Assembly (NCBI RefSeq): GCF_011694515.1
Contig: NZ_CP050192.1
Span: forward strand, 4,169,064 to 4,233,063
Direction: 5' to 3'
Length of the DNA: 64,000 nucleotides
DNA from: Mycobacterium sp. DL592
GTDB lineage: Bacteria > Actinomycetota > Actinomycetes > Mycobacteriales > Mycobacteriaceae
Position 1 is the stretch's first letter. Each line of letters begins with the position of its first letter. Made by a program: the position numbers and the translations under genes. Below the pieces are notes generated by a model. The model was not told the origin of the DNA and searched no databases. It worked only from the letters and a program-made list of their open reading frames with translations. Shown here in pieces: positions 7,998 to 38,515 of the stretch.

Positions 7998-8154
7998 CCA
8001 CTTTCGCGTGGAGCGACGCTCTGTGCCACTGATTAAGATCAATTAATTGTGTCGTCAATAACCGGCTTTTTGTAGTTGGTGATTCCGTTGACAGCCCTAT
8101 GCGGCGGTGGGACGCTTACGCCAGTTATAAGGCATTACATAGGGGGTCGGGGAT

Positions 8155-8646
8155 ATGTCCACAGCTAACGTGGTTCAGTTCGGAACCAAGAGGTTGCAAC
8201 TCAGCACCGCAGCACTAGTAGTCGCTGCGGCAGCCACGCTCACACCAGTGGTCGCTCACGCGGGGCCAAGCCTCGCGCCGTTCGCCGAAAACATCGGCAG
8301 CGCAGCATCGCTCGTCGTCAATCCGGTCATCGTTCCGAGTAATTCCGCCAACGCTTCGGCGTCTGTCGTCACGGATCCGTGCGCCACCGCCAACTTCAAG
8401 CTGGGCTGCTACACGGTCGAGGGAGCCGTCGCAGGTACCCAGGCCATCGTCCGCGGCGTCGTGGTCTACGTCGGGACGGTAGCGTATGTCTTCGTCCAGG
8501 CCACGGGTGAACTTCTCAAGGCGATAGGCAACATTCTCCCCGGACCGGTGGGCAACTTCTTCACGAATGTCGGCAACGGAGTCAGCGCCTTCGCCACCAA
8601 TATCGCCCAGACGTTCCACGTCGGCCCGTATCTCACAGGCGCGTAG
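8155..8646 (+). CDS. small secreted protein, module copy 1 (unnamed family)
   Basis: A 163-residue protein of no recognised family. A signal peptide covers about residues 1-38: positive FGTKRLQ, then a hydrophobic stretch rich in Ala/Val/Leu, then VVAHAG as a likely signal-peptidase I site. The mature part has a Pro/Ser/Ala-rich segment, two cysteines eight residues apart (DPC...GC, a possible disulfide), and a strongly apolar C-terminal half (AIVRGVVVYVGTVAYVFVQA) that may be a hairpin of membrane-active helices. It ends HVGPYLTGA. A paralogue at 34488 keeps the Cys pair and the GPYxTGA end. Both sit directly before a DUF4012 gene and a Wzz-kinase, so a role in polysaccharide export or attachment is inferred. 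The start has GGGGG at 8142-8146. Confidence 0.8.
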   Translation: MSTANVVQFGTKRLQLSTAALVVAAAATLTPVVAHAGPSLAPFAENIGSAASLVVNPVIVPSNSANASASVVTDPCATANFKLGCYTVEGAVAGTQAIVRGVVVYVGTVAYVFVQATGELLKAIGNILPGPVGNFFTNVGNGVSAFATNIAQTFHVGPYLTGA

Positions 8647-8768
8647 CCCAATTCAGGGACGCAACTCGTCAGCTGACGCCCGACCGGCGGCTGGCGGGTT
8701 GTTCCACACTTGCCAGCTGTGTGGCTTCCCTCTGCGGAAGCCCACATCAGAGCACGGGGGATTACTGA

Positions 8769-10586
8769 GTGGGTGTCTTTTCAGGGCATTCGTCCAGCGA
8801 CGACGAGGACGACGAAGAGCGGCGCCGAATGTGGCGCCGCAAGACTGCTTGGGCGGGGCTCCTAGTGCTCGTTGTCCTGATCGGCCTCGGAGCATGGCTT
8901 GGCCTCCGCGCGCAAGCGGCGAAGACTGACCTCGAACAAGCACGCGGCAGTGCCCAACAGGCCAAAGATGCCCTGCTGCAGGGAAACACCGCGGACGCAT
9001 CACGCTTCGCGGCCGACGCGCAATCGCACGCCCAGGCAGCTCGCGACGCGACCCACTCGCTGCCGTGGAACATCGCTTCTGCCGTGCCATGGTTGGGCAG
9101 CCCGTTCAGAACCGGTCAGCAGATATCGAACGTTGTTCTCGGGTTGACTACCGACGTGTTGAGGCCCACCGCAGATGCCGGCACAGGTCTCGCACCAACG
9201 CAGTTGCTAGCCGACGGCCGGCTTGATGTAGCGGCATTGCGCAAGGAAGAGCCGGTGCTGGCCAAGATCGCCGCATCCGCGGCTCGAATCAATGCTGAAG
9301 CTATGGGGATTTCAGAGCCGGGGTACGTGTCAGCGATCGGCGAAGCACGGTCACAACTACAGAAGCAGACGTCTGATATCGCCCGACTGATGGACAACAC
9401 GGCCTTGGCCGCGCAGCTGGCCCCGTCGATGTTGGGCGCCGACGGACCACGCACCTACTTCATGGGCTTCCAAACCAACGCCGAAGCCCGTGGAACTGGC
9501 GGTCTGCTCGGCGGTTTCGGAATCCTGCGGTTCGACAATGGCAAGCCGAGCGTGGACACGTTGGGGGCGAACAGCGACTTCAAGAAGCCGTTCACACCCT
9601 TCAGCCTAGGTCCGGAATACGACCAGGAATACGGGTTCACCCATCCGACTACGGATTTCCGCAACAGCAACCAGAGCTCCCACTTCCCCTACGCGGCGCA
9701 GATCTGGAAGTCGATGTGGGCACAGGAGTCGGGAGTGAACGTCGACGGAGTGATTGCAATCGATCCGATCGCTCTGAGCTACATCCTCGGAGCCACCGGA
9801 CCGGTGGTGATGCCGAACGGTGAGACGGTGGCGGAGAACAACGTCGTGGAACTGACTGAGTCGACTGTTTATAGCCGATTTCCGAGCGATCAGGCTGCGC
9901 GAAAACAGTATCTCCAGGACATCGCAACCGAGGTCGTCAAGATGATCACCAAGCCGATAAACTCGCCTCGAAAGCTGTTGGATGCGTTGGGGCGGGCCAT
10001 CAGTGAGCGCCGAATAGCGGTCTGGAGTGCATCGCCTGCAGACCAGAAGCTCCTTGAAGAAACACCCCTGGCTCATGCGATCCCCGACGACCCAGCCCCC
10101 TACGCCGAAGTTGTCATCAACAATCTCGGCGGAAACAAGATGGACTACTACCTCGACCGGCAGATCGAGTATGTCGCCGACGGCTGTGACGGGGATACCC
10201 GGATGTCGACCGTCACCGTCAGGCTGACCAACACGCTGTCGGATCCGGCGGGACTCCCTGATTATGTCGCAGGGCGGTTGGGTTTCTTTCCAGCCCTTGC
10301 GGAGAATGTTCCGCGAGGTGCGATGCTCACATCCGTGCGCCTTCTCGCGACCGAGAATGCACAGGTCATCAGTGTCCTGGTCAACGGCAAAAGGATTCGC
10401 GTCTTTGGAGCCAAGGAGCGCGGCCATCCAAGCTTCGAAGCTCAGGTGGCGATTCCGCCCGGAAAGACTGCCGAACTGACCTTCCGGCTCTCCGAGCCGA
10501 CGGCTCGCGGCGGAGCACGGGTTCCTGTGCAGCCGTTGGCAGACAACCTGACGCCTGTGGTCTCGGTGCCCTCGTGCACGGGATGA
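8769..10586 (+). CDS. DUF4012 membrane protein, module copy 1
   Basis: A 605-residue protein with one N-terminal membrane segment (about residues 25-46, KTAWAGLLVLVVLIGLGAWL) after a short acidic cytoplasmic tail. A coiled-coil-like Ala/Gln/Asp-rich stretch follows (about 50-100), then a long extracellular domain. That domain has conserved blocks GPRTYFMGFQTNAEARGTGG, VDGVIAIDPIALSYILGATG and GGNKMDYYLDRQIEY. DUF4012 proteins occur in actinobacterial polysaccharide clusters and have no proven function. The block VDGVxxIDPxxLSxxLxAxGPV is reminiscent of the LytR-CpsA-Psr attachment enzymes, but this is my reading, not an established relation. The GTG at 8769, preceded by GGGGG at 8756-8760, agrees with the start context of the copy at 35068. 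Confidence 0.85.
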   Translation: MGVFSGHSSSDDEDDEERRRMWRRKTAWAGLLVLVVLIGLGAWLGLRAQAAKTDLEQARGSAQQAKDALLQGNTADASRFAADAQSHAQAARDATHSLPWNIASAVPWLGSPFRTGQQISNVVLGLTTDVLRPTADAGTGLAPTQLLADGRLDVAALRKEEPVLAKIAASAARINAEAMGISEPGYVSAIGEARSQLQKQTSDIARLMDNTALAAQLAPSMLGADGPRTYFMGFQTNAEARGTGGLLGGFGILRFDNGKPSVDTLGANSDFKKPFTPFSLGPEYDQEYGFTHPTTDFRNSNQSSHFPYAAQIWKSMWAQESGVNVDGVIAIDPIALSYILGATGPVVMPNGETVAENNVVELTESTVYSRFPSDQAARKQYLQDIATEVVKMITKPINSPRKLLDALGRAISERRIAVWSASPADQKLLEETPLAHAIPDDPAPYAEVVINNLGGNKMDYYLDRQIEYVADGCDGDTRMSTVTVRLTNTLSDPAGLPDYVAGRLGFFPALAENVPRGAMLTSVRLLATENAQVISVLVNGKRIRVFGAKERGHPSFEAQVAIPPGKTAELTFRLSEPTARGGARVPVQPLADNLTPVVSVPSCTG

Positions 10587-10599
10587 GTAGCTGTCGACT

Positions 10600-10634
10600 G
10601 GCCGGACCGCGATCCCACGTCGCGCCGACCGGCC
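10600..10634 (+). terminator. imperfect hairpin after the DUF4012 gene
   Basis: Outer arms GGCCGG (10600-10605) and CCGGCC (10629-10634), inner arms CGCG (10608-10611 and 10621-10624), starting 14 bases after the stop. There is no T-run. It may reduce read-through into the kinase gene, which appears to have its own -10 element. Confidence 0.35.
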
Positions 10635-10750
10635 TTGCGTACGTAGGGCAAATCGATTCACCTCAAGCAGTTCGGCCGAATCTCGCCTTCTGCCCGAGGA
10701 ATACGCGATGCCCGAGTTCTCATTCTGGGCTGCCCAGAGACTCCGAAAGG

Positions 10751-10756
10751 TATAAT
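10751..10756 (+). promoter_or_regulatory. candidate -10 element before kinase copy 1
   Basis: A perfect TATAAT lies 66 bases before the kinase start at 10822, in DNA where such a hexamer is rare. No convincing -35 is visible 16-18 bases upstream, which is common in mycobacterial promoters. The equivalent gap in copy 2 (36910-37057) has no matching hexamer. Confidence 0.4.
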
Positions 10757-10821
10757 TCGCAAGGATGCGACGTCCAGGCGCCGCGACACGGGGCGGGAAT
10801 TAGCATGTCGGGGAGACGGCT

Positions 10822-12282
10822 TTGACACTTCAAGACTTCCTAAAGGTTTTGCGTTCTCGATGGATAACCATCGCCGTTACCACCTTGGTGGTCGTGTTGG
10901 GCGCCATCATCGCCACGATGACCATGACTCCGGTCTACCAGGCATCGACGAGGCTGTTTGTCTCTACGGCCGCCAGTTCATCGCTGAGTGAGCTGTATCA
11001 AGGAAATCGACTCTCACAGGAGCGTGTTCTGTCATACACCGAATTGCTCATGGGAGAAACGCTGGCCCAGCGCACGATCGATAAACTCGGCCTCCCAATG
11101 ACAGCGGCCGCGCTACGCAAGGATGTCAAAGCGACCGCCAAGCCCGACACCGTCCTGATAGACGTCAAAGTGGTTGACCCTTCGCCGATCCGAGCACGTG
11201 ACATCGCGAACGCGCTTTCGGACGAGTTCGTCGTCATGGTGCGTGAACTGGAGACGTCTGCCAATGGGTCGACACCAGACGCTCGCGTTGTCGTCGAGCA
11301 GCGCGCGTCGATGCCCGAAAAGCCGGTCTCCCCAAAACCTTTGCTCAACATCACAGCAGGTCTAGCACTCGGCATCGCGTTGGGCGTCGGTCTGGCGATT
11401 CTGCGCGAGAAGCTCGATAACACCGTCAAGGACCGGCGGGAGCTTGAGGAGATCAGTCAGGTCTCGCTGGTCGGCAGCATTCCGCTCGACAAGGAACGTC
11501 CGGACGAGCCAGCGATAACATTCGACAACGACAGTTCCACGATTGCTGAGGCATTCAGGAAACTCCGCACAAACCTCCAGTTCCTCTCGGTGGACGACCC
11601 GCCGCGGGTGATCGTTGTAACCAGTTCAATGCCGAGCGAGGGTAAGACCACCACTGCTATCAACATCGGGCTGGCATTGGCGGAAGCCGAGCACAATGTC
11701 GTGATAGTCGACGGCGACATGCGCCGTCCCATGCTGGACAAGTATCTCGGTATGGTCGGCCGCGTCGGCTTCAGTACGGTGCTCAGCGGTGCAGCACCCC
11801 TTTCAGATGTGCTCCAGAAGACGAGATTCCCCCGATTGTCGGTATTGACCTCTGGCGCCGTTCCACCCAATCCCAGCGAGCTGCTCGGGTCGCTGGCCGC
11901 CCAAAAGGTTCTGGGCGAACTACGCGCCCAGTTCGACTATGTCATCCTGGATTCGTCGCCGCTGCTCGCGGTTACCGACGCCGCGATCTTGGCGGCGCAT
12001 TCTGATGGCGCGCTTATCATCGCGCGGCACGGGCGGACAAAGCGCGACCAACTCGCACATGCGGTAGGAGCGCTGAGGGATGTCGGCGCACCCATACTCG
12101 GCGCCGTCTTCACCATGACTCCCTCACGTGGACGCTCGTCGTACAACTACAAGTACAACTACAACAGCCAGCCCGAGGCGCAAGTCACGTCTCCCCACGG
12201 ACCGCTCACCGAGCCTGCAGTACCAGAACCCGCACCCGTGCTCGAAGTAGCCTCACAGCAAGACCAGAAGGATCACGCGTGA
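10822..12282 (+). CDS. Wzz-type chain-length protein fused to bacterial tyrosine kinase, module copy 1
   Basis: A 486-residue polysaccharide co-polymerase. The N-terminal Wzz domain has two membrane helices (about 14-34 and 177-195) enclosing an extracellular part. The C-terminal BY-kinase domain has Walker [12 protein letters not shown] (Lys275), Walker A' [11 protein letters not shown] and Walker [11 protein letters not shown]. The C-terminus has a tyrosine cluster at about residues 440-447 (SYNYKYNYN), the usual autophosphorylation site. Such proteins control chain length and export of Wzx/Wzy-dependent polysaccharides, with the phosphatase at 31.4 kb as the likely partner. The TTG start at 10822 follows GGGGAG. 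A second copy is at 37058. The fused Wzz-kinase form is typical of proteobacteria and actinobacteria; many Firmicutes have separate proteins. Confidence 0.93.
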
Positions 12283-12331
12283 GCGCCGCTACGGATTGCT
12301 TCTCAGCATCCACGAAAGTCGGCGAAGGCCA

Positions 12332-13387
12332 ATGACTAAGCGCGCTTTGATTACTGGCATCACAGGCCAAGACGGCTCATACATGGCTGAGCTCTTACTC
12401 AGCAAAGGTTATGAGGTGCACGGTCTCATTCGCCGCGCATCTACGTTCAACACCTCGCGCATTGATCATCTGTACGTCGACCCGCATTCGCCCGATGCGC
12501 GACTTTTTCTGCACTACGGAGATTTGAGCGACGGTGTACGACTGGTGACACTACTCGCCGACATCAAACCCGACGAGGTTTACAATTTGGCTGCACAGTC
12601 ACATGTTCGGGTCTCATTCGATGAGCCCGAACATACAGCCGACACAACCGGAACCGGGACTGTTCGCATGCTCGAGGCGGTCCGATTGTCGGGAATCAAG
12701 ACGCGCTATTACCAGGCCTCCTCCTCAGAGCTCTACGGTGCAACGCCACCACCGCAGTCCGAGGACTCGCCCTTCTACCCGCGGTCGCCCTACGCCGCCG
12801 CCAAGTTGTACAGCTACTGGATCACCAAGAACTATCGCGAGGCTTACGGCCTCTTCGCGGTCAACGGAATCTTGTTCAACCACGAATCACCAAGGCGTGG
12901 TGAGACATTCGCCACCCGGAAGATCACCCGCGCGGTCGCCGCAATAAAAGCCGGCAAACAAGACTGCGTGTATATGGGCAACCTCAATGCAGTCCGCGAT
13001 TGGGGCTATGCACCCGAGTACGTCGAGGGAATGTGGCGGACCCTGCAGGCCGACCGGCCCGACGACTATGTCCTGGCAACGGGCGTGGGCACGAGTGTCA
13101 GAGAGTTCGTCGAGATTGCATTCGATCACGCGGGCCTCAACTGGGAGGATCACGTTCGGTTTGACGAACGCTACCTTCGCCCAACCGAGGTCGACGCCCT
13201 GATCGGTGATTCGTCTCGAGCTCGCGATCGACTCGACTGGGTGGCGAGCGTCCATGGCCCCGAGTTGGCTCGCCTCATGGTGGATGCGGACGTCGAAGCA
13301 CTCGAGCACGCGGGCACTCCCTGGATCGACAGGGTGGAGCTGGACACGTGGGAAACACCGGTCGCCCGAGTCGATGCCACAACATGA
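12332..13387 (+). CDS. gmd: GDP-mannose 4,6-dehydratase
   Basis: A 351-residue extended short-chain dehydrogenase. It converts GDP-D-mannose to GDP-4-keto-6-deoxymannose. The N-terminal NAD(P) loop is [15 protein letters not shown], and the catalytic YxxxK is in SPYAAAK (Tyr154, Lys158). The stretches [16 protein letters not shown] and [19 protein letters not shown] are characteristic of Gmd. The ATG at 12332 has GCGAAGG upstream; a longer TTG at 12296 lacks support. Its stop overlaps the next start (ATGA), so it is translated together with fcl. The pair makes GDP-L-fucose, as Rv1511-Rv1512 homologues do elsewhere. Confidence 0.95.
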
Positions 13388-14382
13388 CGGCCGGCGCACA
13401 GTTCTCGGCCGGCGAGCTCGACCGCGATGCGCCGTTCTACATCGCAGGCCATCGTGGACTTGTCGGTTCAGCGATTGTCCGCCGGCTTCAGGCAGCGGGC
13501 TTCGAGAACCTGATCGGCCGAACATCAGTCGAGCTAGACCTGAGGGACCGCACAGCGGTCTTCGACTTCCTTACTGACACCAAGCCCCGCTACGTCGTCA
13601 TGGCTGCGGCGAGAGTCGGCGGCATTCTCGCTAACAGTACCTACCCGGTCGACTTTCTCAGTGACAACTTACGTATCCAGGTCAATGTCCTCGACGCAGC
13701 GCGCAGTGCCGGCGTAGAGCGCTTGCTCTTCCTCGGGTCATCGTGCATCTATCCGAGGCTTGCTCAGCAACCGATACCCGAAGAGGCGTTACTCACCGGC
13801 CGCCTCGAGCCGACAAATGACGCTTACGCAATCGCGAAGATCGCAGGCATAGTGCACGTTCAGGCGGTGCGCAGACAGTTTGGCCTGCCGTGGATTTCGG
13901 CAATGCCGACGAATCTTTACGGCCCCAATGACAACTTCTCTCCCACTGGTTCACACGTGCTTCCGGCACTGATACGACGGTATGAGGCGGCGGCGGCGGC
14001 CGATGCCCGGTCGGTGGCCAACTGGGGTACCGGTTCGCCGCGACGCGAGTTTCTGCACGTAGACGACATGGCGGACGCGTGCCTGTATCTGCTTGAGCAC
14101 TACGACGGGCCCAGCCACATCAACGTCGGTAGTGGTATCGACGTCACGATCCGCGAACTTGCCGAGCTGATCGCATCCGCTGTCGGCTATCACGGTGAAA
14201 CCGTTTGGGATGCAACAAAGCCCGATGGGATGCCGCAGAAGCTTCTTGACGTCTCCAAGCTCACACGCGCGGGTTGGAAGTCACGGATCAGCCTTTACGA
14301 AGGCATCGAGTCCACCGTGGCCTGGTACCGCAATGGGGCCCACTCGTTACGCGGATATGCCGACAAGTCGAGACAGAACTAG
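13384..14382 (+). CDS. fcl: GDP-L-fucose synthase
   Basis: A 332-residue epimerase-reductase that turns GDP-4-keto-6-deoxymannose into GDP-L-fucose. The cofactor loop is [10 protein letters not shown] (about residues 21-30), the catalytic YxxxK is DAYAIAK (Tyr148, Lys152), and family blocks [25 protein letters not shown] and [16 protein letters not shown] are present. The ATG at 13384 overlaps the gmd stop by four bases. It is the last gene of the first + strand run and faces a glycosyltransferase gene on the other strand. Confidence 0.95.
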
Positions 14383-14417
14383 CGACTTCTCCGCGAGATT
14401 GTCTGGGAGACTTAGTC

Positions 14418-27018: not shown

Positions 27019-27562
27019 GGCGTGACATTACAACCGGTGGATTTTCTGCCGCAGGCAACAGAGAAACCCCGGATGGTCTCGAGCTTCGAGGTGCTTGCAA
27101 CTCGAAGCTTTCCAGGTTTGCGCGGCCGGTCGCGGACTTGCTCGTTGAGAACCACAAGTCGTGGCGGTTTCTGAAAGAAGCCGAACCGGGCCGCCGAGCG
27201 CCGATGAACACCGCATTGGACTCGCGCGCAAAGAACAGGGAGCACGCGCGTGTTCGCACTCCAAACCGCGGCTCTCCACACTTCCGCGCGCTGGTCGCCA
27301 AGGTTCGCCATTCTGATTGCTGAGGGCACCCGACGGTGCTAGCGTCAGAGTCGAGCATGAGCTGGCCAACATAGGCTCTACGCTATTCGGGGTTCGGGGG
27401 GATTCACGTGTGTTCATATTTTCCTTTGCAAATAGCGGCATCACCGCGACCTTTCTTAGCTAATGGTCGGCCAATATTTGCAGATGGAGGACGCGGCTTA
27501 CTCAAGATCAAATACCGATTCGAGTGGGCCGTATGGAACAGACAAGAGCATCGGGGGCGGTC
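27019..27562. other. 544-base divergent intergenic region with hairpin and short leader-like frames
   Basis: This region lies between the WbuB-like gene (-) and the UXS-UGD gene (+), so it should hold two promoters. It contains an inverted repeat, AGCTTCGAG (27082-27090) and CTCGAAGCT (27101-27109). At 27393-27405 is TTCGGGGGGATTC, also found before the methyltransferase at 20957, followed by two overlapping short frames from GTG 27409 and GTG 27411. No -10/-35 pair can be named with confidence. Confidence 0.45.
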
Positions 27563-29884
27563 ATGCGGCGACGGGCAGTATTAACGGGCGGTGCCGGGTT
27601 CATCGGCTCTCATCTTGCGGAACGGCTGCTGGATCACGACATTGACGTGATATGCCTAGACAACTTCGTGACTGGGGCGGCCGAGAATGTCGCCCACCTT
27701 CAAGGCCGGGAGGGCTTTCGCCTAGTCAATGTGGACGTTAGTGACTTCATTTCGATCCCCGGGCCAGTTGACTACGTGCTCCATTTCGCTTCTCCGGCTT
27801 CGCCCGTGGACTATGCGGAGTTCCCCATACAAACGTTGAAGGCCGGTTCTTTGGGAACACTCCACACCTTGGGCTTGGCCAAGGAAAAGGGGGCCCGCTT
27901 TCTTCTTGCGTCGACCTCAGAGACCTACGGTGACCCGCTCGTCCATCCTCAGCCCGAAACCTACTGGGGCAACGTCAATCCGGTGGGGCCACGTGCCTGC
28001 TACGACGAGGCGAAGCGCTTCGCCGAAGCGCTTACGACGTCGTACCGGAACGTACACGGCGTCAACACCGCGATCATGCGCATCTTCAACACATATGGGC
28101 CTCGCATGCGTGCGAACGACGGCCGTGCGATCCCAAACTTCGTAACGCAAGCACTGGCCGGTATCCCGATCTCGGTTCACGGCGATGGCAGTCAGACGCG
28201 CTCCGTCTGCTATGTCGATGATCTAGTCGAGGGTGCCCTACGGCTCTTGTTCTCCGACGTTGCGGGTCCGGTCAACGTTGGCAATCCCCATGAGATGACG
28301 ATCTTGCAGTTGGCGGAACTCATCCGGGAGCTCGCCGGAACAGACTCTCCGATTGAGTTCTCTGAGCGCCCCCAGGATGATCCGTCTCAGCGTCGACCAG
28401 ACATCACACTCGCGAGGAGCGAACTGGGTTGGGCTCCTGAGGTTGAAGCCCGCGATGGCCTGCTGCGAACCACTTCTTGGTTTCGCAGCGGCAGTGACCG
28501 CTCATGGCAGCGCACCCCCGTTGGTTCACTTGACGATCGGCCCCAGGAGCAACCGCGCCACAACGTTGCGGTCATCGGTACCGGATACGTCGGCGCGGTC
28601 ACTTCGACATGTTTGGCGTTTCTCGGCCATTCCGTGTGTGGTCTGGACACCAATGCTTCATGCGCTGGTCAGCTCAACGATGGGCAGGCGCCCTTCGTCG
28701 AGCCTGGATTGCAAGACCTTCTCAAGTCGACATTGTCGACCGGACGGCTACGGTTCACCAGCGAACCCAGCGACGCATTGTCCGATGCAGACTTCGTCTT
28801 CCTTTGCGTTGGAACTCCACCGGACGATGGCGGATCGCCGGACCTTTCGCAGCTCGAAAGTGCTATCAGTTCGTTGGCGCCGCATCTTCGCCCAGGTGCC
28901 GTGATCGTCAACAAGTCCACCGTGCCGGTCGGTTCAGGTAACTGGACGCGCACAATCCTGGAAGACGCATTAGAGGGGAGCCGGCAGCTGACGTTCCACG
29001 TCGTCTCCAACCCGGAGTTCCTTCGGGAGGGATCTGCTATCGATGACTTCCTCTACCCCGATCGCATCGTGCTGGGCGGTGCCGACGAGGACGTCAGTTG
29101 CGTAGCCGAGCTCTACCAACCGGTGCTGAATCAATCGTTCGCCGGCGGTCGACGGGGTATTCAGCCAGCGCTGATCACAACGGAATTGGCGTCCGCCGAG
29201 ATGATCAAGTACGCCGCGAATGCGTTTCTGGCGACGAAGATCAGTTTTGCGAACGAGATGGCCCAGCTGTGTGAGCTGCTCGGTGCCGACGTCCGAGAAG
29301 TGCTTCCCGCCATCGGTGCCGACCACCGCGTTGGAAGTGCGTTCCTCAATCCTGGTGTCGGGTGGGGGGGGTCGTGCTTCGGTAAGGACGTCGCCGCGCT
29401 GATCTCATCCGGCCAGGAATACGGCTACACGCCAACGATGTTGCAAGCAACCGTTGCTATCAACAAAGCGCAACGAGCCAGCGTCGTGCGAAAGCTTCAG
29501 CGGGAGCTTCACGTGTTGAAAGGCCGCCGAGTCGCGTTACTCGGCTTGACCTTCAAGCCCGGAACAGACGATCTGCGTGACTCGCCAGCCCTCGATATAG
29601 CTCGGCGGCTACTTGCCGCAGGCGTGACAGTCTCCGCCTTCGACCCAGTCCTGAAGGAACTTCCGGTCGAGTTCGGCGCGGTGCGACTAGCACACGATGT
29701 TTATGATGCCGCCGACAGAGTGGACGCTGTTGTCGTTACCACCGAATGGCCGGATTTCCGCCAGATTGACCCTGCCGAGTTGCGCCGTGCCATGCGAGGC
29801 ACTGTGGTTGTCGACGGCCGAAATTGTCTGCCGGAAGCACACTTTGCCGAGTCAGGCCTGCGACTGATCGGATTCGGCTGGTGA
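27563..29884 (+). CDS. UDP-glucuronate decarboxylase fused to UDP-glucose 6-dehydrogenase
   Basis: A 773-residue fusion. Residues 1 to about 320 are a UDP-xylose synthase (UXS): [36 protein letters not shown], catalytic YxxxK in CYDEAKR (Tyr147, Lys151), NTYGPRM and [16 protein letters not shown] short linker (near 321-331) leads to a complete UDP-glucose dehydrogenase: [45 protein letters not shown], catalytic Cys605 in GGSCFGKD, and [18 protein letters not shown]. The protein should convert UDP-glucose to UDP-glucuronate and on to UDP-xylose with two NAD-linked steps. GGGGG at 27553-27557 precedes the ATG at 27563; an earlier ATG at 27536 has no ribosome site. Separate genes are the usual arrangement. 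Confidence 0.93.
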
Positions 29885-29914: not shown

Positions 29915-31381
29915 GTGACTATTGACATACCCCGCAAGCGACTCTCCGTTCGCAAATCCGACCTGCGCGCGGCGTTGGATTCCCCGGTGGAGATTGGTGG
30001 TACAGCGCGGGCACGGCAACTCGGCCTGCAACATCGCTATCTCCTGGAGATATCAGATCTGATCACGCTGACAGCCTGCGCTACCCTTGGTGCGCTGGCA
30101 CTCAGCCACATCAGCGCGGAGCGCGCCGGCCATCTCGGCATCCGCGACATAGCGGTCGCGACCACAGCAATGGCGGTCGCACTGCACCTTCACGGGCTGT
30201 ACCGTCGACCCGCCTCGCGTCTGAGGCCGAGCGAGTGGTGGCGGCCCATGGTGGTCGCTCGGTGCCTGCCGACCGCCGCCCTGCTCGCACTCGGAGCTGA
30301 CACCTTCATCGGCGGCGGCGGAAGAATGCTCACGCTGACAGCTGCCGTGGCCATGACACTTCCTGCCATCGTCTTGGTGCCGTTCGGACGGCGACTGGTC
30401 GTCCGACTGTTCGATCCCACCGTGAGCCGAATCTTGGTGATTGGGACTGGACCGAGTTCGGTTCGATTGACATCGAGGCTGCAGCGGTGCCCCGATACTC
30501 TGGTGGTCGGCCACGTCGATGACAATCCGACTCCCGGAACGCTTGTCCTTGGCAGCCTTTCCGACCTTCCCGCCGTCTGCAAGGCTTATCAGGTTGATCG
30601 GGTCATCATTGGCTTTCCGAGAGCTGATGACGCCTCCGTGCTCGAGGCCCTGCGCCACCTTGAGGGACAAGTGCCGGTTTCTGAGATTCCACGCTATTTC
30701 GAGCTGCACAACTGGCGAAGCGAGGCCGAGGAGTTACATGGCCTAACTCTGGTGCACTTGCCTACTGCCTCACTGGGACCAGTCGCACGAGTCTCGAAGC
30801 GGATCATCGACGTGACGCTCGCGACGTGTGCACTCATGTTCGCCAGTCCGGTGCTGCTTATCGTCGCCGTCGCGATCAAGCTCGACAGCAGCGGGCCGGT
30901 GTTCTTTCGCCAAGAACGAATTGGCCAGGCCGGCAAACCCTTCCAAATCTTCAAGTTTCGCTCTATGACTGCTGACGCGTGGGAGCAACGCGACATCATT
31001 GCACAACTCAATGAGGTGGATGGTCCTCTGTTCAAGATGCAGAACGATCCAAGAGTCACCAGGGTCGGCGCCTTCATCCGCAAGACCAGCATCGACGAAC
31101 TGCCTCAATTGATCAATGTGGTCCGAGGCGAGATGTCGCTGGTCGGCCCTCGCCCACTGCCGACCGAGGAGTCCGAGCACATCGATGGTGCAGCGCTGGC
31201 ACGCCTGGACGTAAAGCCTGGCATAACCGGCCTTTGGCAGGTCTGCGGTCGGAGCGAGTTGACGTACGCCGACCTCCAGCACCTTGATTCGGTCTACGTC
31301 CGGTCGTGGTCGCTGATGTGGGACATGCGAATTCTGATACAAACGCCGCGGATAGTACTTGGACGCAACGGTGCCTACTGA
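29915..31381 (+). CDS. polyprenyl-phosphate sugar-1-phosphate transferase, copy 1
   Basis: A 488-residue WcaJ/WbaP-type initiating enzyme that transfers a hexose-1-phosphate to the lipid carrier. There are four N-terminal hydrophobic segments (about 50-160), a Rossmann-like middle region (ILVIGTGPSSVRL, CKAYQVDRVIIGFP), one membrane segment (near 300-325) and the C-terminal bacterial sugar-transferase domain. That domain has FFRQERIGQAGKPFQIFKFRSM, RKTSIDELPQLINVVRGEMS, LVGPRPLP and KPGITGLWQVCGRSEL. A strong AAGGAGT site precedes the GTG at 29915. It is cotranscribed with the UXS-UGD gene 31 bases upstream and the phosphatase downstream. A second copy is at 54766. Confidence 0.92.
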   Translation: MTIDIPRKRLSVRKSDLRAALDSPVEIGGTARARQLGLQHRYLLEISDLITLTACATLGALALSHISAERAGHLGIRDIAVATTAMAVALHLHGLYRRPASRLRPSEWWRPMVVARCLPTAALLALGADTFIGGGGRMLTLTAAVAMTLPAIVLVPFGRRLVVRLFDPTVSRILVIGTGPSSVRLTSRLQRCPDTLVVGHVDDNPTPGTLVLGSLSDLPAVCKAYQVDRVIIGFPRADDASVLEALRHLEGQVPVSEIPRYFELHNWRSEAEELHGLTLVHLPTASLGPVARVSKRIIDVTLATCALMFASPVLLIVAVAIKLDSSGPVFFRQERIGQAGKPFQIFKFRSMTADAWEQRDIIAQLNEVDGPLFKMQNDPRVTRVGAFIRKTSIDELPQLINVVRGEMSLVGPRPLPTEESEHIDGAALARLDVKPGITGLWQVCGRSELTYADLQHLDSVYVRSWSLMWDMRILIQTPRIVLGRNGAY

Positions 31382-31420: not shown

Positions 31421-31966
31421 TTGCGCCGCCAGCGGAGCAAGGAGGACATTCTGAGAGTTCTGTTTGTCTGCACGGGAAACATCTGTCGGTCGCCTATGGC
31501 GGAACGGTATACAGCTGCCTACGCCAGGCAGCATCAACTCTCCCACCTCCTAGCATCTAGTGCCGGTACCCATGCGGTAGTCGCACATCCGATGCATCAC
31601 GAGGCAGCAGCGGTGCTTGCCGAAATCGGTGGCGACGCATCAGAATTCGCTGCGCGACAGCTGAATTCGAGAATCGCGTCAGACGCCGACCTCATTCTCA
31701 CCATGACGATGGCGCAGCGAGACATGGTATTGGAACTCGCCCCACGCCAACTCCGTAGGACATTTTCGCTGGGCGAAGCCTCTCGACTTGCATCAGAGGG
31801 CGGGGGCATTAGTGTCACCGACCTCGCAGATCTCCGTCCGCGCCTTCAATCGTCCGAGCTTGTGGACGTCCCCGACCCTATCGGCCAGAGCCCGGAATTC
31901 TTCGCGATGGTTGGCTTCCAGATCGCAGCCCTGCTGACACCGATCCTTGAATTGTGCAGACAGTAA
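31421..31966 (+). CDS. low-molecular-weight protein tyrosine phosphatase (Wzb-like)
   Basis: A protein of about 171-181 residues. The active-site loop is VCTGNICRSPMAERY (C(x)5R with Cys17 in the long form), and the general acid is in VDVPDPIGQSPEFF. It should dephosphorylate the tyrosine tails of the two Wzz-kinases, which cycles chain-length control. The start is unusual. The only standard codon, TTG at 31421, sits in the loop of a GCGGC/GCCGC hairpin (31416-31429). A perfect AAGGAGG (31439-31445) instead places initiation at CTG 31451 or ATT 31448, giving MRVLFVC, the family N-terminus. The coordinates give the longest form. Confidence 0.9.
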   Translation: MRRQRSKEDILRVLFVCTGNICRSPMAERYTAAYARQHQLSHLLASSAGTHAVVAHPMHHEAAAVLAEIGGDASEFAARQLNSRIASDADLILTMTMAQRDMVLELAPRQLRRTFSLGEASRLASEGGGISVTDLADLRPRLQSSELVDVPDPIGQSPEFFAMVGFQIAALLTPILELCRQ

Positions 31967-31986
31967 CTCCGAGCGTATTGCCAAAG

Positions 31987-32005: not shown

Positions 32006-32021
32006 ACAACGAGTCCCAGGA

Positions 32022-32528: not shown

Positions 32529-32876
32529 GTTCTCCCCCATCGAACGGCACGCCACCCCAACGGACATGCAAACCAGCCCCTAAACCATATCGCTCGTTCG
32601 AGGCTCCGGTGACGAAATCTGTGACGCGACCGAAGCGTTCTTCGATAGGACTGGAACTGGCCCAATCTCCATCAATCACCGACGTCGTCTCCCCAGTCGA
32701 ACGGTGATTGCGACGCAATTTGACCGTTCAACGATCAGCCAAACAACTTCTCTCCCAAGCATCCCTGCACCTGCTCCGATTGCTTGAACCGGGACGCTTT
32801 AGACCGGCGTCCATCAATCCCCACACTGATAGCCTGCGTTCGAATCGTGGGGCGCCGTAGGGGGAGGGCTGCATAC
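32529..32876. other. 348-base divergent intergenic region
   Basis: This lies between the small secreted protein (-) and the EEP-family gene (+) and should contain promoters for both. No gene or clear repeat was seen, apart from the G-run at 32860-32864 before the + start. Confidence 0.5.
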
Positions 32877-33860
32877 GTGTACAAGACGATCCGTGTGGTG
32901 GTTCTGTCAACAGTGTCGATTTCGGCTCTCGGATTCGCCCTTCTCGCCCTGGCGGCGCGAACGCAACCGATAAAGACAGTCGCGGATCTGGTCCTCGCTG
33001 TGGGGTCGCCTTACGTCACGCTCGTTGCCCTGTTGGGGCTGTGCCTTGCTGCTTCCTGCCGTCGAGTGGCACTCTCGATCGCCGCCGTGGGCGTCCTCGT
33101 CGCCACCCTCGCTGTCCAGGTGTCGTGGTACTACCTTGGCCGGCCCGTGACGATCGGCGAGCACGTCTCCCTGCGGGTGCTGTCTTCGAACCTTCGCTAC
33201 GGACAGGCCGACCCTTCATTCCTCGTTGGCCTGGCCAAGGACGGCGCCGATGTGATCACCCTCTCCGAGTTGACTCCAGAAGCCGTGCAACGCTTTCAGC
33301 AAGCCGGAATCGACAAGACCTTCCCCTACTCTCAACTCATCCCCTCGGCTGGCGCCGGGGGAATCGGCATGTGGAGTCGGTATCCGCTTACCTCCTTGTC
33401 GGCACCGCGGCACCGCGGCGTGACGATTCCTGTAGCGCGGCTGCAGATTCCCGGGTTAGCGACAGAACCACTACTGGCGAGTGTGCACGTCACATCGCCG
33501 GTCGCCGAAGAACATAACACCGTCGCAGAGTGGCGCAGCGGAATGGCAAGCGCCAAAGCACAATTAGCGAACTTTGCGGACAGTGCTGGATTCGGTGCGG
33601 TCATCGTGGGTGGCGACTACAACAGCACTCCCGACATGCTGCAGTTCCGGGAACTGCTGACTGACGGCTACCGCGATGCTGTGGAGCAGCTCGGCGCCGG
33701 CTTCGCTCCGACCTTCCCGTCCAACAGGTGGTATCCACCTCTGATCACCATCGACCACATTTTGACCCACAACGCCGCTGCTTCGTCGATCCGTACTGTC
33801 GAAGTGCCGGGCTCCGACCACCGCGCATTGCTGGCAACCATCGAATTGCCCACCGGCTAG
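32877..33860 (+). CDS. membrane-anchored endonuclease/exonuclease/phosphatase-family protein
   Basis: A 327-residue protein with three N-terminal membrane segments (about 6-100) and an extracytoplasmic EEP domain. The domain has LRVLSSNLRYGQADPSFL, DGADVITLSELTPE, GGDYNSTPDMLQFRELL, and the catalytic end TIDHILTH...GSDHRALLATI, with D-H pairs for the metal and the histidine. The placement suggests a phosphodiesterase for a lipid- or sugar-linked phosphate, not DNA. The GTG at 32877 follows GGGGGAGGG (32860-32868). A longer start at 32784 is possible. Substrate unknown. Confidence 0.82.
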   Translation: MYKTIRVVVLSTVSISALGFALLALAARTQPIKTVADLVLAVGSPYVTLVALLGLCLAASCRRVALSIAAVGVLVATLAVQVSWYYLGRPVTIGEHVSLRVLSSNLRYGQADPSFLVGLAKDGADVITLSELTPEAVQRFQQAGIDKTFPYSQLIPSAGAGGIGMWSRYPLTSLSAPRHRGVTIPVARLQIPGLATEPLLASVHVTSPVAEEHNTVAEWRSGMASAKAQLANFADSAGFGAVIVGGDYNSTPDMLQFRELLTDGYRDAVEQLGAGFAPTFPSNRWYPPLITIDHILTHNAAASSIRTVEVPGSDHRALLATIELPTG

Positions 33861-34487
33861 TTCTACAACCGACTGAGGTCGTTGACAGTCTGGGCTCCTT
33901 GGAAGGAGCTGTATGGCTGAGCGCGTGTGGAGCGAGAAGGACCTAAGCCGGCGTCGATCACCCATGCGGGCCTGCGGTGGGCGATCCGGAACAGTCGCGC
34001 GCCCACATCACCGGCACAGTCCGCAGCATCGGCGATGACACCACCGTTGCCGACGCCCTCCGGCAGCCCCCCACTTCCACTGCTCCCGCCGCGGATCGGC
34101 AGGCCACCGGATGCTCACCTATTCGCAGCACTTCCACAGATGTCTCGCAGCAACCGCTACCGATGTTGGTACACCCAGATTCCGGACCCAGAGCACTGCT
34201 GAGTGCACGCGATTGGAATCCTCGCTATCGAAGCTGAGGGCCCGATCGAGCCCGGGAGCACGCCCTCTCGCGCTAAACACGTGGGCCAGCAAATTAATGC
34301 GCAAGAACGGCGATCCAAATTCCGTTGCTGGGTAGCAGAGAATTTACAAACTTTGCGCATGAAAGTAGGTATTTGCGTTTGACAGCACCATCACCTTCTG
34401 ACACGATCTCACCAGCTCAAGCCCTTATCCAGCAGGTTTCCGTCCACGAGTATCGACGGCTTCACGGCCGACAATTGGGGGTCCCAA
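33861..34487. other. 627-base intergenic region before module copy 2
   Basis: It holds a small hairpin right after the EEP gene, GCTCCT (33894-33899) and AGGAGC (33904-33909), and TTGACA at 34380-34385, 108 bases before the small secreted protein gene. Copy 1 also has TTGACAGC (8088-8095) upstream of its start. The several 60-90 codon frames in this gap show no family features. Just before the start, TTGGG-GGT-CCCAA forms a hairpin that covers the G-run. Confidence 0.45.
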
Positions 34488-34931
34488 ATGACTACTGCAG
34501 GCGCAACCAATTTCGCTACCAAGTTCCAGGTGGGTACTGCGGCACTGGTGCTCGCCACCGCTGCCGTGATCACGCCTACGGCAGCTCACGCGGCAGGAAT
34601 CGGCAATTCGGTGTCGGGAGCTGTCAACTCGGTCGTGATTCCCACTGCTGCGGCGTCCGCCACGACCACTTGCAACCCGGGAGACGTGGGCTGCTATCTC
34701 GTTGAATCAGTCGTCTCCGGAGTGCAAACCCTGGTACGCGGAACGGTGACCTTCATCGGAAATGTCGCCTACGTCCTCGTGGACGGCACCGCTCAGCTCT
34801 TGAAGCTGGTGTCCAAAGTCGTCGGCGGTCCCATCGGTGAATTCTTCAGCAACGTGAGCGACGGGGTCAGCGCCTTCGGCACCTCCATCGCCCTGACGTT
34901 CCATGCCGGCCCCTACCAGACTGGCGCGTAG
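34488..34931 (+). CDS. small secreted protein, module copy 2 (unnamed family)
   Basis: A 147-residue paralogue of the protein at 8155. A signal peptide (about 1-36) ends near AAHAAG. The mature part has a Ser/Thr/Ala-rich segment, a Cys pair six residues apart (TTCNPGDVGC), the apolar stretch TLVRGTVTFIGNVAYVLVDG, then LLKLVSKVVGGPIGEFFSNV and the invariant end HAGPYQTGA. It lacks about 16 residues of the first copy between the signal peptide and the Cys pair. The ATG at 34488 has GGGGG at 34477-34481. The conserved apolar helices and terminal GPYxTGA argue for a partner of the DUF4012 protein encoded next; function unknown. Confidence 0.82.
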   Translation: MTTAGATNFATKFQVGTAALVLATAAVITPTAAHAAGIGNSVSGAVNSVVIPTAAASATTTCNPGDVGCYLVESVVSGVQTLVRGTVTFIGNVAYVLVDGTAQLLKLVSKVVGGPIGEFFSNVSDGVSAFGTSIALTFHAGPYQTGA

Positions 34932-35067
34932 CTCAATCTCAACGGAATCACTCGTCAGTTGGCGCCGCCCGCGCCCGCTGGAGATTCGGTTCTTCAGAGT
35001 CAGCTATCGCGACTGCTGTCTGCTGTCGTCTAACGCAGACCGCACTGGAGCACGGGGAATGTACTGA

Positions 35068-36909
35068 GTGGGTCTCTTTTCACGGCATCGGTCCAGTGGC
35101 GACTCGAACGATAGCTCCACGACTTCGCCCGACACCGATGAGCGCCCCTGGTTCAGGAGCGGCAGGGTTGCGTGGTCAGGCCTTGGGATTCTTGTCCTGC
35201 TCATCGCGTTCGGCTGCTGGCTCGGTTTCCAAGCGCAAGCAGCCAAGGCCCACCTCGACCAGGCGCGCAGCACTGCCCAGCAGAGCAAAGATGCACTGCT
35301 GCAGGGTGATACGGCTGACGCGACACGGTTTGCCGCTGATGCGCAGACGCAAGCACAGGCTGCCCGGGATGCGGCCCACTCCCTGCCCTGGAACATCGCT
35401 TCCGCAGTGCCGTGGCTGGGCGGCCCTTTCAAGACCGGCCAACAGATAACCGATGTGGTGCTGGGGCTGGCGGCTGACGTTCTGAAACCCACCGCAGATG
35501 CCGGCACCAGCGTCGCGCCGAAGCAACTGCTTGCGAACGGCCGACTCGACGTACAGTCACTTCGCAAGGAAGCGCCGATTCTGGCCAAGATCGCTGCGAG
35601 CGCAGCGCGGCTTAACGCTGAGGCAGAAGCGATTTCGGATCCGCATTATGTTTCGGCGCTCGGTGAGGCCCGAACGAAACTTCAAGCGCAGACTGCCGAT
35701 ATCTCCCAGCTGGTGGGCAACGCCGCTGTCGCCGCGCGTGTAGCGCCGGCACTCATGGGTGCCGACGGCCCCCGCACTTACTTCATGGGATTCCAGACCA
35801 ATGCCGAGGCCCGAGGCACCGGAGGGCTCCTCGGCGGGTTTGGAATTCTGCGATTCGACAATGGCAAGCCCGCAGTGGACACGCTGGGCCGCAATACCGA
35901 GCTTGATAAGCCCTTCACGCCGATGTCTCTTGGCCCAGACTTCGACCAGCAGTACGGGTTCACCCATCCAACTACGGATTTCCGTAACAGCAACCAGAGT
36001 TCCCATTTCCCATATGCGGCCCAGATCTGGCAGTCGATGTGGGAACAACAGTCGGGAATGAAGGTCGATGGTGTTGTCGCCATCGACCCCATCGCACTCA
36101 GCTATATCCTCGGGGCCACCGGACCTGTCGTGATGCCGGACGGCGAGACGGTAGCGGACAACAACGTCGTCGAGTTGACTGAGTCGACCGTCTACACCCG
36201 CTTTCCCACAGATCAATCCGCGCGTAAGCAGTATCTGCAGGAGGTTGCTTCCGCGGTGGTCAAGAAGATCGGCGCGCCGGTGCAGTCCGCGCGCAAGTTG
36301 TTCGACGCCTTAGGCCGTGCGATCGGCGAGCGGCGAATCTCGGTCTGGAGTTCGTCACCTGCCGACCAGAAGCTGCTTGAAGAGACTCCTCTGGCTCATG
36401 TGGTTCCAGATGATCCGGCGCCCTACGCGGAGGTCGTCATCAATAATCTCGGCGGCAACAAGATGGACTATTACTTGGATCGACAGATCGAGTATGTCGC
36501 TGACGGTTGCGATGGAGATACGCGGATGTCGACTGTCACGGTCCGGTTGACCAATACACTCCCGGATGCATCTGGACTGCCGGATTACGTCGCAGGGAAG
36601 TTGGGCTTCTTTCCCGCTCTCGCAGAGAACATCCCGAGGGGCGCGATGCTCAGCTCGGTACGCCTGCTCGCAACCAAGGACGCGCAGGTAATCAGTGTTG
36701 TCGTCAACGGCAAGAGGGTTCGTGTCTTCGGCGCCAAGGAGCGCGGACACCCCAGCTTTGAGAGTCAAGTGGCCATCGCACCCGGAAAGACTGCGGAGAT
36801 CACTTTCCGGCTCTCCGAACCCACAGCCGCTGGGGCGCCACGCGTACCAGTTCAACCGTTGCGCGACACCGTTATCCCGGAAGTCACGGTGCCGCAATGC
36901 TCAAAGTGA
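35068..36909 (+). CDS. DUF4012 membrane protein, module copy 2
   Basis: A 613-residue protein, very similar to the one at 8769. It has an N-terminal cytoplasmic tail rich in Ser/Asp, one membrane helix (about 32-52), an Ala/Gln-rich heptad stretch, and a long extracellular domain. Conserved blocks are GPRTYFMGFQTNAEARGTGG, NSNQSSHFPYAAQIWQSMWE, VDGVVAIDPIALSYILGATG and GGNKMDYYLDRQIEY. Conservation of the whole extracellular domain in both copies suggests it binds or acts on something common, such as the lipid carrier or the wall acceptor. GTG start at 35068 with GGGG upstream. Confidence 0.85.
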   Translation: MGLFSRHRSSGDSNDSSTTSPDTDERPWFRSGRVAWSGLGILVLLIAFGCWLGFQAQAAKAHLDQARSTAQQSKDALLQGDTADATRFAADAQTQAQAARDAAHSLPWNIASAVPWLGGPFKTGQQITDVVLGLAADVLKPTADAGTSVAPKQLLANGRLDVQSLRKEAPILAKIAASAARLNAEAEAISDPHYVSALGEARTKLQAQTADISQLVGNAAVAARVAPALMGADGPRTYFMGFQTNAEARGTGGLLGGFGILRFDNGKPAVDTLGRNTELDKPFTPMSLGPDFDQQYGFTHPTTDFRNSNQSSHFPYAAQIWQSMWEQQSGMKVDGVVAIDPIALSYILGATGPVVMPDGETVADNNVVELTESTVYTRFPTDQSARKQYLQEVASAVVKKIGAPVQSARKLFDALGRAIGERRISVWSSSPADQKLLEETPLAHVVPDDPAPYAEVVINNLGGNKMDYYLDRQIEYVADGCDGDTRMSTVTVRLTNTLPDASGLPDYVAGKLGFFPALAENIPRGAMLSSVRLLATKDAQVISVVVNGKRVRVFGAKERGHPSFESQVAIAPGKTAEITFRLSEPTAAGAPRVPVQPLRDTVIPEVTVPQCSK

Positions 36910-37057
36910 TTCTCCATCGCCGCCCGGGACAAGTTCGTCGGATGCAGCCTGCGGATAGTGCAGGTAACAGCTGTGCAATGTTCAATTTGAGGTCCAGCGC
37001 CTACTCAGGTAGGTCAGCCGCCGGGGACGCAAGTCCGCCTATGGGAAGGGGAACGCA

Positions 37058-38515
37058 GTGAATCTCCAGGAATTTGTCAAAATTCTTCGAGCGCGCTGGA
37101 TTACAGTCACCGCAGCCCTGACGGCCGCCCTACTGGCGGCGGTCGCTGTCACTCTGCTGACCACACCGCTCTACCAGGCGTCGACACGGCTGTTCGTCTC
37201 GACAGCGGCGGGCGATTCCTTGGCAGACGCCTATCAGGGCACCCTGTTCTCCCAAGAGCGCGTGTTGTCGTACACGCAGCTTCTGAAGGGTGAGACCCTG
37301 GCCAAACGCACGATCGACAAGCTCGGCCTCGATATGAGACCCTCCGCACTGACCAAACAGATCACAGCCTCTGCCAAGCAGGACACGGTGCTCATCGATG
37401 TCCAGGTACTCGACGCCTCGCCCGTCCGGGCCCGCGACATCGCAAACGCGTTGTCCGACGAGTTCGTGAAAATGGTTCGAGAACTCGAGACGCCCCCAGA
37501 CGGCTCGAAGCCCGACGCACGGGTGATCGTCGAACAACGCGCGACGATTCCCGAATCACCCGTCGTGCCCAAGACCAGCCGCAACATCGCGTTGGGGTTG
37601 GTCGCCGGTGTGTTGTTGGGCGTGGGCCTGGCGGTCCTCCGAGATCGACTGGACAACACCGTCAACGACCGTGAGACGGTCGAGGACATTACGGGCGTCG
37701 TGCTGGTCGGCAACATCCCGGCTGACAAGGAACGGCGTAAGGACGCGGCGATCGCGTTCGACAAAGAGAGTTCGGGTATCTCGGAGGCCTTCCGCAAGCT
37801 TCGGACCAATCTGCAGTTCCTCGCCGTCGACGACCCGCCCCGGGCGATCCTCGTTGCCAGCTCGCTGCCGAATGAAGGGAAATCCACAACAGCGATCAAC
37901 CTGGCACTCGTACTGGCCGAAGCCGGGCACACGGTCGTTCTGGTCGATGGCGACATGCGCAGGCCGATGCTGGACAAATACCTGAACCTCGTTGGCACAG
38001 CGGGCTTCAGCACTGTCCTCAGCGGCGCAGCATCACTCAGCGACGTCCTGCAGAAGACCCGGTTCCCCGGCCTGACGGTGCTGGCTTCCGGCGCGATTCC
38101 GCCGAATCCGAGCGAATTGCTCGCATCCCAGGCCGCCAAGCGGATCGTGGGCGAACTGCGCGAGCAATTCGACTACGTCATTGTGGATTCCTCCCCCCTG
38201 CTGGCCGTCACAGATGCGGCCGTCCTGTCCACCAGTGTCGACGGCGTGCTGGTGATGGTGCGGTTCGGAACGACGAAACGCGAACAGCTCGCGCATGCGA
38301 TCAGGAACCTCACCGGCGTGGGCGCGTCCATCCTCGGAGCTGTGTTCACCATGACCGCAGCACGTGGCACAACCTCGTACAGCTATAACTACAACTACAG
38401 CTATGGCAGCGATGGCGCGTCGCTGAACGGTTCATCGGCCACCACGAGCGGATCCGCCGAGGACTCCTCCGATGTGCCGGCCACATCCGAGAAAGAGGCC
38501 GTCGAGCCGGTGTGA
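37058..38515 (+). CDS. Wzz-type chain-length protein fused to bacterial tyrosine kinase, module copy 2
   Basis: A 485-residue paralogue of the protein at 10822. Wzz domain with two membrane helices (about 14-34 and 177-195). The BY-kinase domain has Walker A SSLPNEGKSTT (Lys275, the same position as in copy 1), Walker A' [11 protein letters not shown] and Walker B YVIVDSSPLL. The C-terminus is Tyr-rich (about 441-451, SYSYNYNYSYG) then Ser/Glu-rich. The GTG at 37058 is preceded by GGGAAGGGGAACGCA. Two such kinases, each with its own DUF4012 and small secreted protein, suggest two polysaccharides or two lengths of one. Confidence 0.93.
   Translation: MNLQEFVKILRARWITVTAALTAALLAAVAVTLLTTPLYQASTRLFVSTAAGDSLADAYQGTLFSQERVLSYTQLLKGETLAKRTIDKLGLDMRPSALTKQITASAKQDTVLIDVQVLDASPVRARDIANALSDEFVKMVRELETPPDGSKPDARVIVEQRATIPESPVVPKTSRNIALGLVAGVLLGVGLAVLRDRLDNTVNDRETVEDITGVVLVGNIPADKERRKDAAIAFDKESSGISEAFRKLRTNLQFLAVDDPPRAILVASSLPNEGKSTTAINLALVLAEAGHTVVLVDGDMRRPMLDKYLNLVGTAGFSTVLSGAASLSDVLQKTRFPGLTVLASGAIPPNPSELLASQAAKRIVGELREQFDYVIVDSSPLLAVTDAAVLSTSVDGVLVMVRFGTTKREQLAHAIRNLTGVGASILGAVFTMTAARGTTSYSYNYNYSYGSDGASLNGSSATTSGSAEDSSDVPATSEKEAVEPV

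Follow-up and report, generated by a model that had tools for sequence, protein, structure and literature searches.

The capsule (cps) locus of Streptococcus pneumoniae, a variable Wzx/Wzy locus, begins, in gene order, with the LCP-type (LytR-CpsA-Psr) protein Cps2A, the phosphatase CpsB and the co-polymerase/tyrosine kinase pair CpsC/CpsD. Passages of PMC12220298 cover Cps2A and CpsB and describe LCP enzymes as fastening capsules to the envelope. For the Actinomyces oris LCP enzyme LcpA, the protein GspA is named as the glycan acceptor in excerpts of PMC6381275, and the corresponding parts of the LCP review PMC7831098 treat A. oris as a so far unique case of protein glycosylation; no word beginning with 'DUF' appears in the text of that review. 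In the exopolysaccharide (EPS) locus of Bifidobacterium longum 105-A (priming glycosyltransferase, DUF4012, wzz) the DUF4012 gene lies directly before wzz, and the excerpted text of PMC5412050 mentions no small partner and gives DUF4012 merely an auxiliary role towards an envelope protein. The domain is also discussed, in extracts of PMC6744442, in connection with candidate-phyla-radiation protein families, and the excerpts of the three papers that name DUF4012 in one open-access literature collection assigned no fold to it. Here we describe a stretch of 64,000 nucleotides (nt) from the 5.1 Mb chromosome of Mycobacterium sp. DL592 (C1:4169064-4233063; hereafter the window) in which DUF4012 is the middle gene of a triplet that occurs twice. 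It is about an even call that this triplet is the conserved head of variable Wzx/Wzy capsule loci in environmental mycobacteria, in which an LCP-like DUF4012 protein fastens the polysaccharide and a small secreted protein works as its partner, most likely by accepting or anchoring the chain; two such capsular-polysaccharide loci side by side are the best explanation of the window.

Both copies have the order small secreted protein, DUF4012 and Wzz/BY-kinase (bacterial tyrosine kinase) on the plus strand, module A spanning 8155-12282 and module B 34488-38515:

8155-8646 (+): module A, small secreted protein of 163 amino acids (aa) with a Sec-type signal, a variable middle and the C-terminus HVGPYLTGA; open reading frame (ORF) and family profile match
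8769-10586 (+): module A, DUF4012 protein of 605 aa with an N-terminal transmembrane segment, a predicted LCP-like domain and a beta-sandwich; PF13196, E 3.4e-44
10822-12282 (+): module A, Wzz/BY-kinase fusion of 486 aa with K275 and a tyrosine tail at 441-447; PF02706, PF13614 and TIGR01007 above cut-off
34488-34931 (+): module B, small secreted protein of 147 aa with the C-terminus HAGPYQTGA; ORF and A3 family
35068-36909 (+): module B, DUF4012 protein of 613 aa; PF13196, with a predicted LCP-like fold at residues 228-442
37058-38515 (+): module B, Wzz/BY-kinase fusion of 485 aa with K275 and a tyrosine tail at 441-449; Pfam, TIGR01007 and motifs

In contrast to the pneumococcal head, Wzz and the kinase are fused here, the phosphatase is encoded elsewhere, a small protein is added and DUF4012 replaces the LCP protein. 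Global alignment of module A with module B gave identities of 78/147 aligned residues for the small proteins, 473/605 for DUF4012 and 307/485 for the kinases. These ORFs and alignments confirmed the first-pass annotation, which had reported a three-gene set present twice in the same order and orientation with full-length protein likeness; its starts at 8134 and 34467 were set 21 nt ahead of the ATG codons (8155 and 34488) at which the small ORFs open. It had also placed the kinase lysine at residue 275 in both copies, and K275 was indeed found within Walker A. Both kinases further carry Walker A', Walker B and a C-terminal cluster of four and five tyrosines, respectively, and are BY-kinases of the Wzc/CapAB type; the solved structures nearest to the kinase domain were CapA/CapB of Staphylococcus aureus, followed by BceF, Etk and Wzc. 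At the DNA level the spacer between the small gene and DUF4012 was alignable between the copies (58 points), and upstream of the small genes there was just a short match (25 points, 28 columns). The two DUF4012 genes were the only matches at E ≤ 0.001 in the whole genome.

Co-inheritance of the three genes was examined in a draw of 118 Mycobacterium genomes (genus in the wide sense), of which 35 carry DUF4012. The small-family profile, which was built from DUF4012 neighbours and hence was not blind to linkage, matched 34 genomes, comprising 33/35 with DUF4012 and 1/83 of the others (Fisher p 1e-25); the sole match without DUF4012 (G092) was weak (E 9e-4). The match adjoined DUF4012 in 32 of these 33 genomes and lay elsewhere in G002. 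The profile missed two DUF4012 genomes: in G052 visual inspection showed a candidate small gene, and G070 is fragmentary and has an LPXTG-type neighbour. A kinase at least 60% identical to that of copy B was present in 33/35 DUF4012 genomes and in 0/83 others, and some related kinase was found at E ≤ 1e-20 in 70 of the 118. From 90 confirmed loci the best 80, all named, were surveyed, including one from Rhodococcus and three bins filed under other phyla; a small Sec-type ORF ended no more than 260 nt upstream of DUF4012 in 77, and 64 had a same-strand kinase starting no further than 1.2 kb downstream. In three of the 16 loci without that kinase it lies further downstream, at 1.5-4.5 kb, three others break off within 1.2 kb, and ten have none in the available flank. 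Because the small ORF was found in 77 and the kinase in 64 of these loci, the small gene is bound to DUF4012 more tightly than the adjacent kinase is. The three genes are thus supported as one unit, as the first-pass annotation had claimed; its own ground for abandoning that view, that the small protein and DUF4012 are usually found without the kinase, is the opposite of what the 64/80 and the 33/35 versus 0/83 counts show. Mycobacterium-like modules also stand in bins assigned to Planctomycetota, Verrucomicrobia and Acidobacteria (L197, L225 and L227), probably on mis-binned contigs.

Beyond the triplet the loci differ. When the window's two Wzy-family proteins and its two flippase-type proteins (coordinates below) were sought at E 1e-15 in the 80 loci, within flanks of up to about 10 kb beyond which genes would be missed, the first Wzy-family protein was found in two loci and the other three proteins in none. 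The triplet is a nearly constant head, and the centre of the loci is variable.

Sequence searches returned no Pfam or NCBIfam match for the small protein of module A and no solved structure for the small family. An alignment of 79 members (77 loci and the window's two) had 101 well-filled columns, one of which was fully invariant, a C-terminal tyrosine that usually stands in G-P-Y; the choice of small genes for this alignment favoured a C-terminal tyrosine motif, so that 79/79 is partly selected, and another round of small-ORF choice in the 80 loci, made along with the kinase survey, had no such preference. The tyrosine lies between two cysteines in 46/79 members, 31/79 lack cysteine throughout the final 36 residues, and the middle of the protein is highly variable. 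At L114, L118 and L120 the small proteins reach about 230-270 aa, with long Ser/Thr/Gly repeats between the signal peptide and the GPY end. Two or three small-family matches occur in G037 (C2:190506-196266) and also in G096, G034, G079, G085 and G044, most of them close to DUF4012.

DUF4012 is widespread, being present in 91/296 sampled genomes of the phylum, and outside Mycobacterium its neighbours were inspected in 54 distinct regions chosen by hand from the matches (L251 and L124 are one Rhodococcus contig). In 25 of these 54 loci an LPXTG-type surface protein, recognised by regular expression, lay within 250 nt of DUF4012, and the same 840 kb held just eight more such ORFs. In a separate set of 25 LPXTG-type neighbours, 24 of them shared with the first (L154 versus L132), 23 were on the DUF4012 strand. 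Of ten neighbours tested, three passed the TIGR01167 cut-off, the same three passed PF00746, and at least three more matched sorting-signal models below cut-off. DUF4012 is repeatedly paired with a small surface protein whose type changes, and this pairing, together with the likely LCP-like identity of DUF4012 (see below), is the new element. The pairing resembles the A. oris LcpA-GspA system, in which the genes of an LCP-fold enzyme and of a secreted surface protein are linked, except that the enzyme acting on GspA is an orthodox LCP and that the Mycobacterium small protein has a C-terminal GPY motif and no sorting signal; its glycosylation is putative, by analogy. One genus of the order (f13 g20; L133, L134 and L146-L149) showed a constant arrangement in 6/6 loci, with a kinase 1.4-2.1 kb upstream, DUF4012, and an LPXTG-type protein directly downstream. 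Neither the small protein nor an LPXTG-type partner was seen at five loci of the same family (L121-L125, one of them Rhodococcus phenolicus). Within Mycobacterium an LPXTG-type neighbour was found in 1/41 loci, on a doubtful contig. This locus is L115 (G070:C537): the assembly is 73% complete, the contig small and the DUF4012 score low, an LPNTG protein is encoded upstream of DUF4012, and the contig is probably foreign to the genome under which it is filed.

The AF2 model of the copy B DUF4012 protein had a predicted local distance difference test score (pLDDT) of 88.6, and the structure of copy A was assigned through its likeness to copy B (78% identical). In the model, residues 228-442 adopt a fold like the catalytic fold of LCP glycopolymer transferases (VIA-align, Z up to 11.0); this call rests on the VIA-align comparison together with a profile comparison. 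A hydrophobic stretch lies near the N-terminus (34-52 in B, 28-46 in A) and forms part of a modelled helix at 31-78; the protein would be anchored in the membrane with the remainder extracytoplasmic. Across 86 sequences, down to 25% identity, the charged residues E247, R249, D340 and R423 were invariant inside the LCP-like domain, as was K465 outside it. A sequence search of DUF4012 against solved structures gave nothing useful (best E 0.21). As judged from the model, DUF4012 is likely to be LCP-like in identity.

Taken together, these observations suggest a scheme for the two loci. Locus-specific enzymes would, as their families imply, prime the sugars on polyprenyl phosphate, flip them and polymerise them, with polymerisation set by the Wzz/BY-kinase and a low-molecular-weight (LMW) phosphatase. 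The DUF4012 protein, given its modelled fold, may then take the finished chain off the lipid carrier and fasten it to the envelope. The small secreted protein, tied to DUF4012 by co-inheritance, would be its dedicated partner, most likely as the chain acceptor or anchor, and outside Mycobacterium an LPXTG-type wall-anchored protein would often stand in its place. The LCP-like assignment makes DUF4012 a testable glycan-transfer enzyme, and the small partner, now named, has a role that is directly testable. If DUF4012 is LCP-like, mycobacteria would have a route of capsule attachment in addition to arabinogalactan ligation, and environmental mycobacteria offer a tractable setting for how polysaccharide stays on the mycomembrane. 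The suggestion in the first-pass annotation that the module controls, exports or anchors a glycan is strengthened, as far as anchoring is concerned, by the predicted fold.

A number of results weigh against this reading. Neither DUF4012 copy matched the Pfam LCP model PF03816, PF13196 being the only match at E ≤ 0.001, and a plain Foldseek search with the model gave no match at E ≤ 0.001; its best rows were aminopeptidases, and the first LCP protein stood at rank 21 (E 0.024). Comparison of DUF4012 with LCP by hhalign gave probabilities of 1-8% (E 0.003-0.036); when the domain was excised and the settings were changed, the score dropped to 20-24, within the shuffle range, and the best unrelated profile (Wzz) scored 27.6. 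The catalytic Arg and Asp of LCP enzymes had no reliable residue-level counterpart in DUF4012, domain-only and global hhalign having failed or dropped to shuffle level. In these respects, and in its long N-terminal helical part and C-terminal beta-sandwich, DUF4012 differs from the LCP transferases Cps2A, TagT/U/V and LcpA. The AF2 model of the copy B small protein (pLDDT 48.6) was uninformative, with low-confidence helices and no known fold, and no fold is claimed for it; both window proteins end without an LPXTG sorting signal (GPYLTGA and GPYQTGA), so that an LPXTG-bearing partner of the LcpA-GspA type was not found here. No LPXTG-type neighbour lay within 250 nt of DUF4012 in 29/54 non-Mycobacterium loci. 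In a draw of 251 genomes of the family, for which part of the profile-search candidates was scored, 103 genomes of other genera had DUF4012, and among the candidates scored only G865 gave a clear small-family match (C12:85029-85481, E 7e-18, beside DUF4012). In other genera the A4 profile also gave weak, partial matches at E ≤ 0.001, in 16 genomes and around its signal-peptide half, which is why weak matches were counted only where they adjoin DUF4012. On the candidates scored, and with an LPXTG-type protein often beside DUF4012 further out, the full triplet is not pan-actinobacterial; the first-pass annotation had seen in it a dedicated actinobacterial machine.

DUF4012 might instead be a classical LCP-type ligase that attaches the chain to peptidoglycan or arabinogalactan, the small protein being merely an accessory that localises, chaperones or stabilises it. 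The LCP-like fold would be the same, the 29 loci without an LPXTG-type neighbour agree with it, and passages of PMC12220298 describe Gram-positive capsule LCPs as ligating capsule to peptidoglycan, with cps2A first in the S. pneumoniae serotype 2 locus. Yet the strain's genome already has five Pfam LCP matches elsewhere, the small gene accompanies DUF4012 more regularly than the adjacent kinase does, and a different type of surface protein adjoins DUF4012 in other actinobacteria; we regard this explanation as tentative and somewhat on the unlikely side. Conversely, the most specific form of the acceptor reading, with DUF4012 an unrecognised branch of the LCP superfamily and the acceptor either the region of the invariant C-terminal tyrosine of the small protein (mycobacteria) or a sortase-tied LPXTG protein (other actinobacteria), is doubtful; if it is true that one or the other protein is the acceptor, a protein-anchored capsule would be a general actinobacterial strategy.

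A further alternative makes the small protein a short helical export component through which the chain crosses the mycomembrane in place of a Wza-type exporter. The second hydrophobic stretch of the copy A protein (96-114), the helices of the low-confidence model, the several family copies in some genomes and the near restriction of clear matches to Mycobacterium (one other genus among the candidates scored) would all suit such a role. The other genera of the family also bear a mycomembrane, however, and among the candidates scored from their 103 DUF4012 genomes G865 alone gave a clear match; in addition, actinobacteria that lack a mycomembrane have a wall-anchored protein beside DUF4012, and more than half of the small family is of the cysteine-closed type, all of which makes an export component unlikely. 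A DUF4012 protein that no longer performs LCP chemistry and serves as a scaffold linking Wzy and the kinase to the wall would account for the unmatched Pfam LCP model and Asp/Arg positions, but the four invariant charged residues inside the LCP-like domain are as expected for an active site, and the scaffold is decidedly improbable.

The description of the modules as direct repeats, if taken to mean a recent DNA duplication at this site, was not borne out. In the DUF4012 tree copy A grouped with Mycobacterium sp. NBC_00419 (0.99) and copy B with P0004 (0.95), within a common clade of 26 sequences, and the kinase tree (weak support, 0.44) and the small-protein tree also separated A from B. A second DUF4012 tree of 83 sequences (midpoint-rooted FastTree, some supports weak) placed the copies of other two-copy genomes as non-sisters in 5/6. 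The sixth, the metagenome bin O_S4.2_bin.18 (L201 and L209), has sister copies, which could be a true duplication or two strains. Since A and B are non-sisters in these trees, the window copies appear to be two diverged modules brought together. Their shared order, orientation and island, and the sister copies in that bin, could be cited for copy B as a recent tandem duplicate of copy A; this origin was rejected on the midpoint-rooted trees, some supports of which are weak, and, barring a rearrangement of the pieces by gene conversion, it can hardly be the right one. Two copies are rare, occurring in 2/35 DUF4012-bearing genomes of the genus draw; Mycobacterium sp. URHB0044 and AZCC_0083 have two modules on one contig.

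The modules lie in a region of about 8-56 kb of the window with a G+C content of 58.5-61.6%, compared with 64-67% in the flanks, and this difference suggests an acquired island. Its polysaccharide genes include:

12296-14382 (+): GDP-mannose dehydratase and epimerase (GDP-fucose type), immediately downstream of module A; PF16363, PF01370
17806-19191 (+): Wzy-type polymerase/O-antigen ligase family protein 1; PF04932, eight hydrophobic segments
23820-25247 (-): polytopic membrane protein, from its context a possible second flippase; nine hydrophobic segments, no Pfam match over cut-off
29915-31381 (+): priming polyprenyl-phosphate sugar transferase 1; PF02397, TIGR03025 above cut-off
31421-31966 (+): LMW tyrosine phosphatase; PF01451, E 6.3e-25
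38781-40268 (-): Wzx-type flippase; PF13440, PF01943
40273-41616 (-): Wzy-type polymerase/O-antigen ligase family protein 2; PF04932, ten hydrophobic segments
54766-56268 (+): priming polyprenyl-phosphate sugar transferase 2; PF02397, PF13727

The island also encodes glycosyltransferases, methyltransferases, sugar-nucleotide enzymes and a pyruvyl transferase, and its one LMW tyrosine phosphatase is probably the partner of the BY-kinases. It holds what defines a Wzx/Wzy-dependent locus, with two priming transferases, two PF04932 proteins, one Pfam-supported flippase and a second by hydropathy, and two Wzz-kinases. Because there are two priming transferases, two Wzy-family proteins, and a flippase with a further polytopic protein, the gene content appears sufficient for two Wzx/Wzy polysaccharides, the assignment of genes to each being putative. 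The idea of one module per polysaccharide, raised in the first-pass annotation, fits this inventory as a possibility.

One flank of the island carries cyclopropane-synthase-type genes; beyond the other are minus-strand ORFs read as ribosomal-protein and NusG/SecE-like and then three tRNAs (Trp, Met and Thr), which were the only hits in an Rfam scan of the window. Because cyclopropane-synthase (CMAS)-type genes like those beside module A recur near DUF4012 in 34-35 of the 80 loci, the chromosomal site of module A has probably been in use for a long time.

Just before module B, 32784-33860 (+) encodes an endonuclease/exonuclease/phosphatase-family protein with three hydrophobic segments, a possible lipid-carrier phosphatase, relatives of which lie near DUF4012 in 8/35 and 10/80 loci. 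At 50199-51575 (+) there is a right-handed beta-helix protein (weak Pfam match) with a twin-arginine-like start and relatives in 3/80 loci, possibly a polysaccharide-cleaving enzyme. The products of 43052-44626 (-) and 46928-48826 (-) gave weak laminin-G/concanavalin-like matches, and 27524-29884 (+) is a single ORF of 786 aa in which a sugar-nucleotide epimerase is fused to a UDP-glucose/GDP-mannose dehydrogenase.
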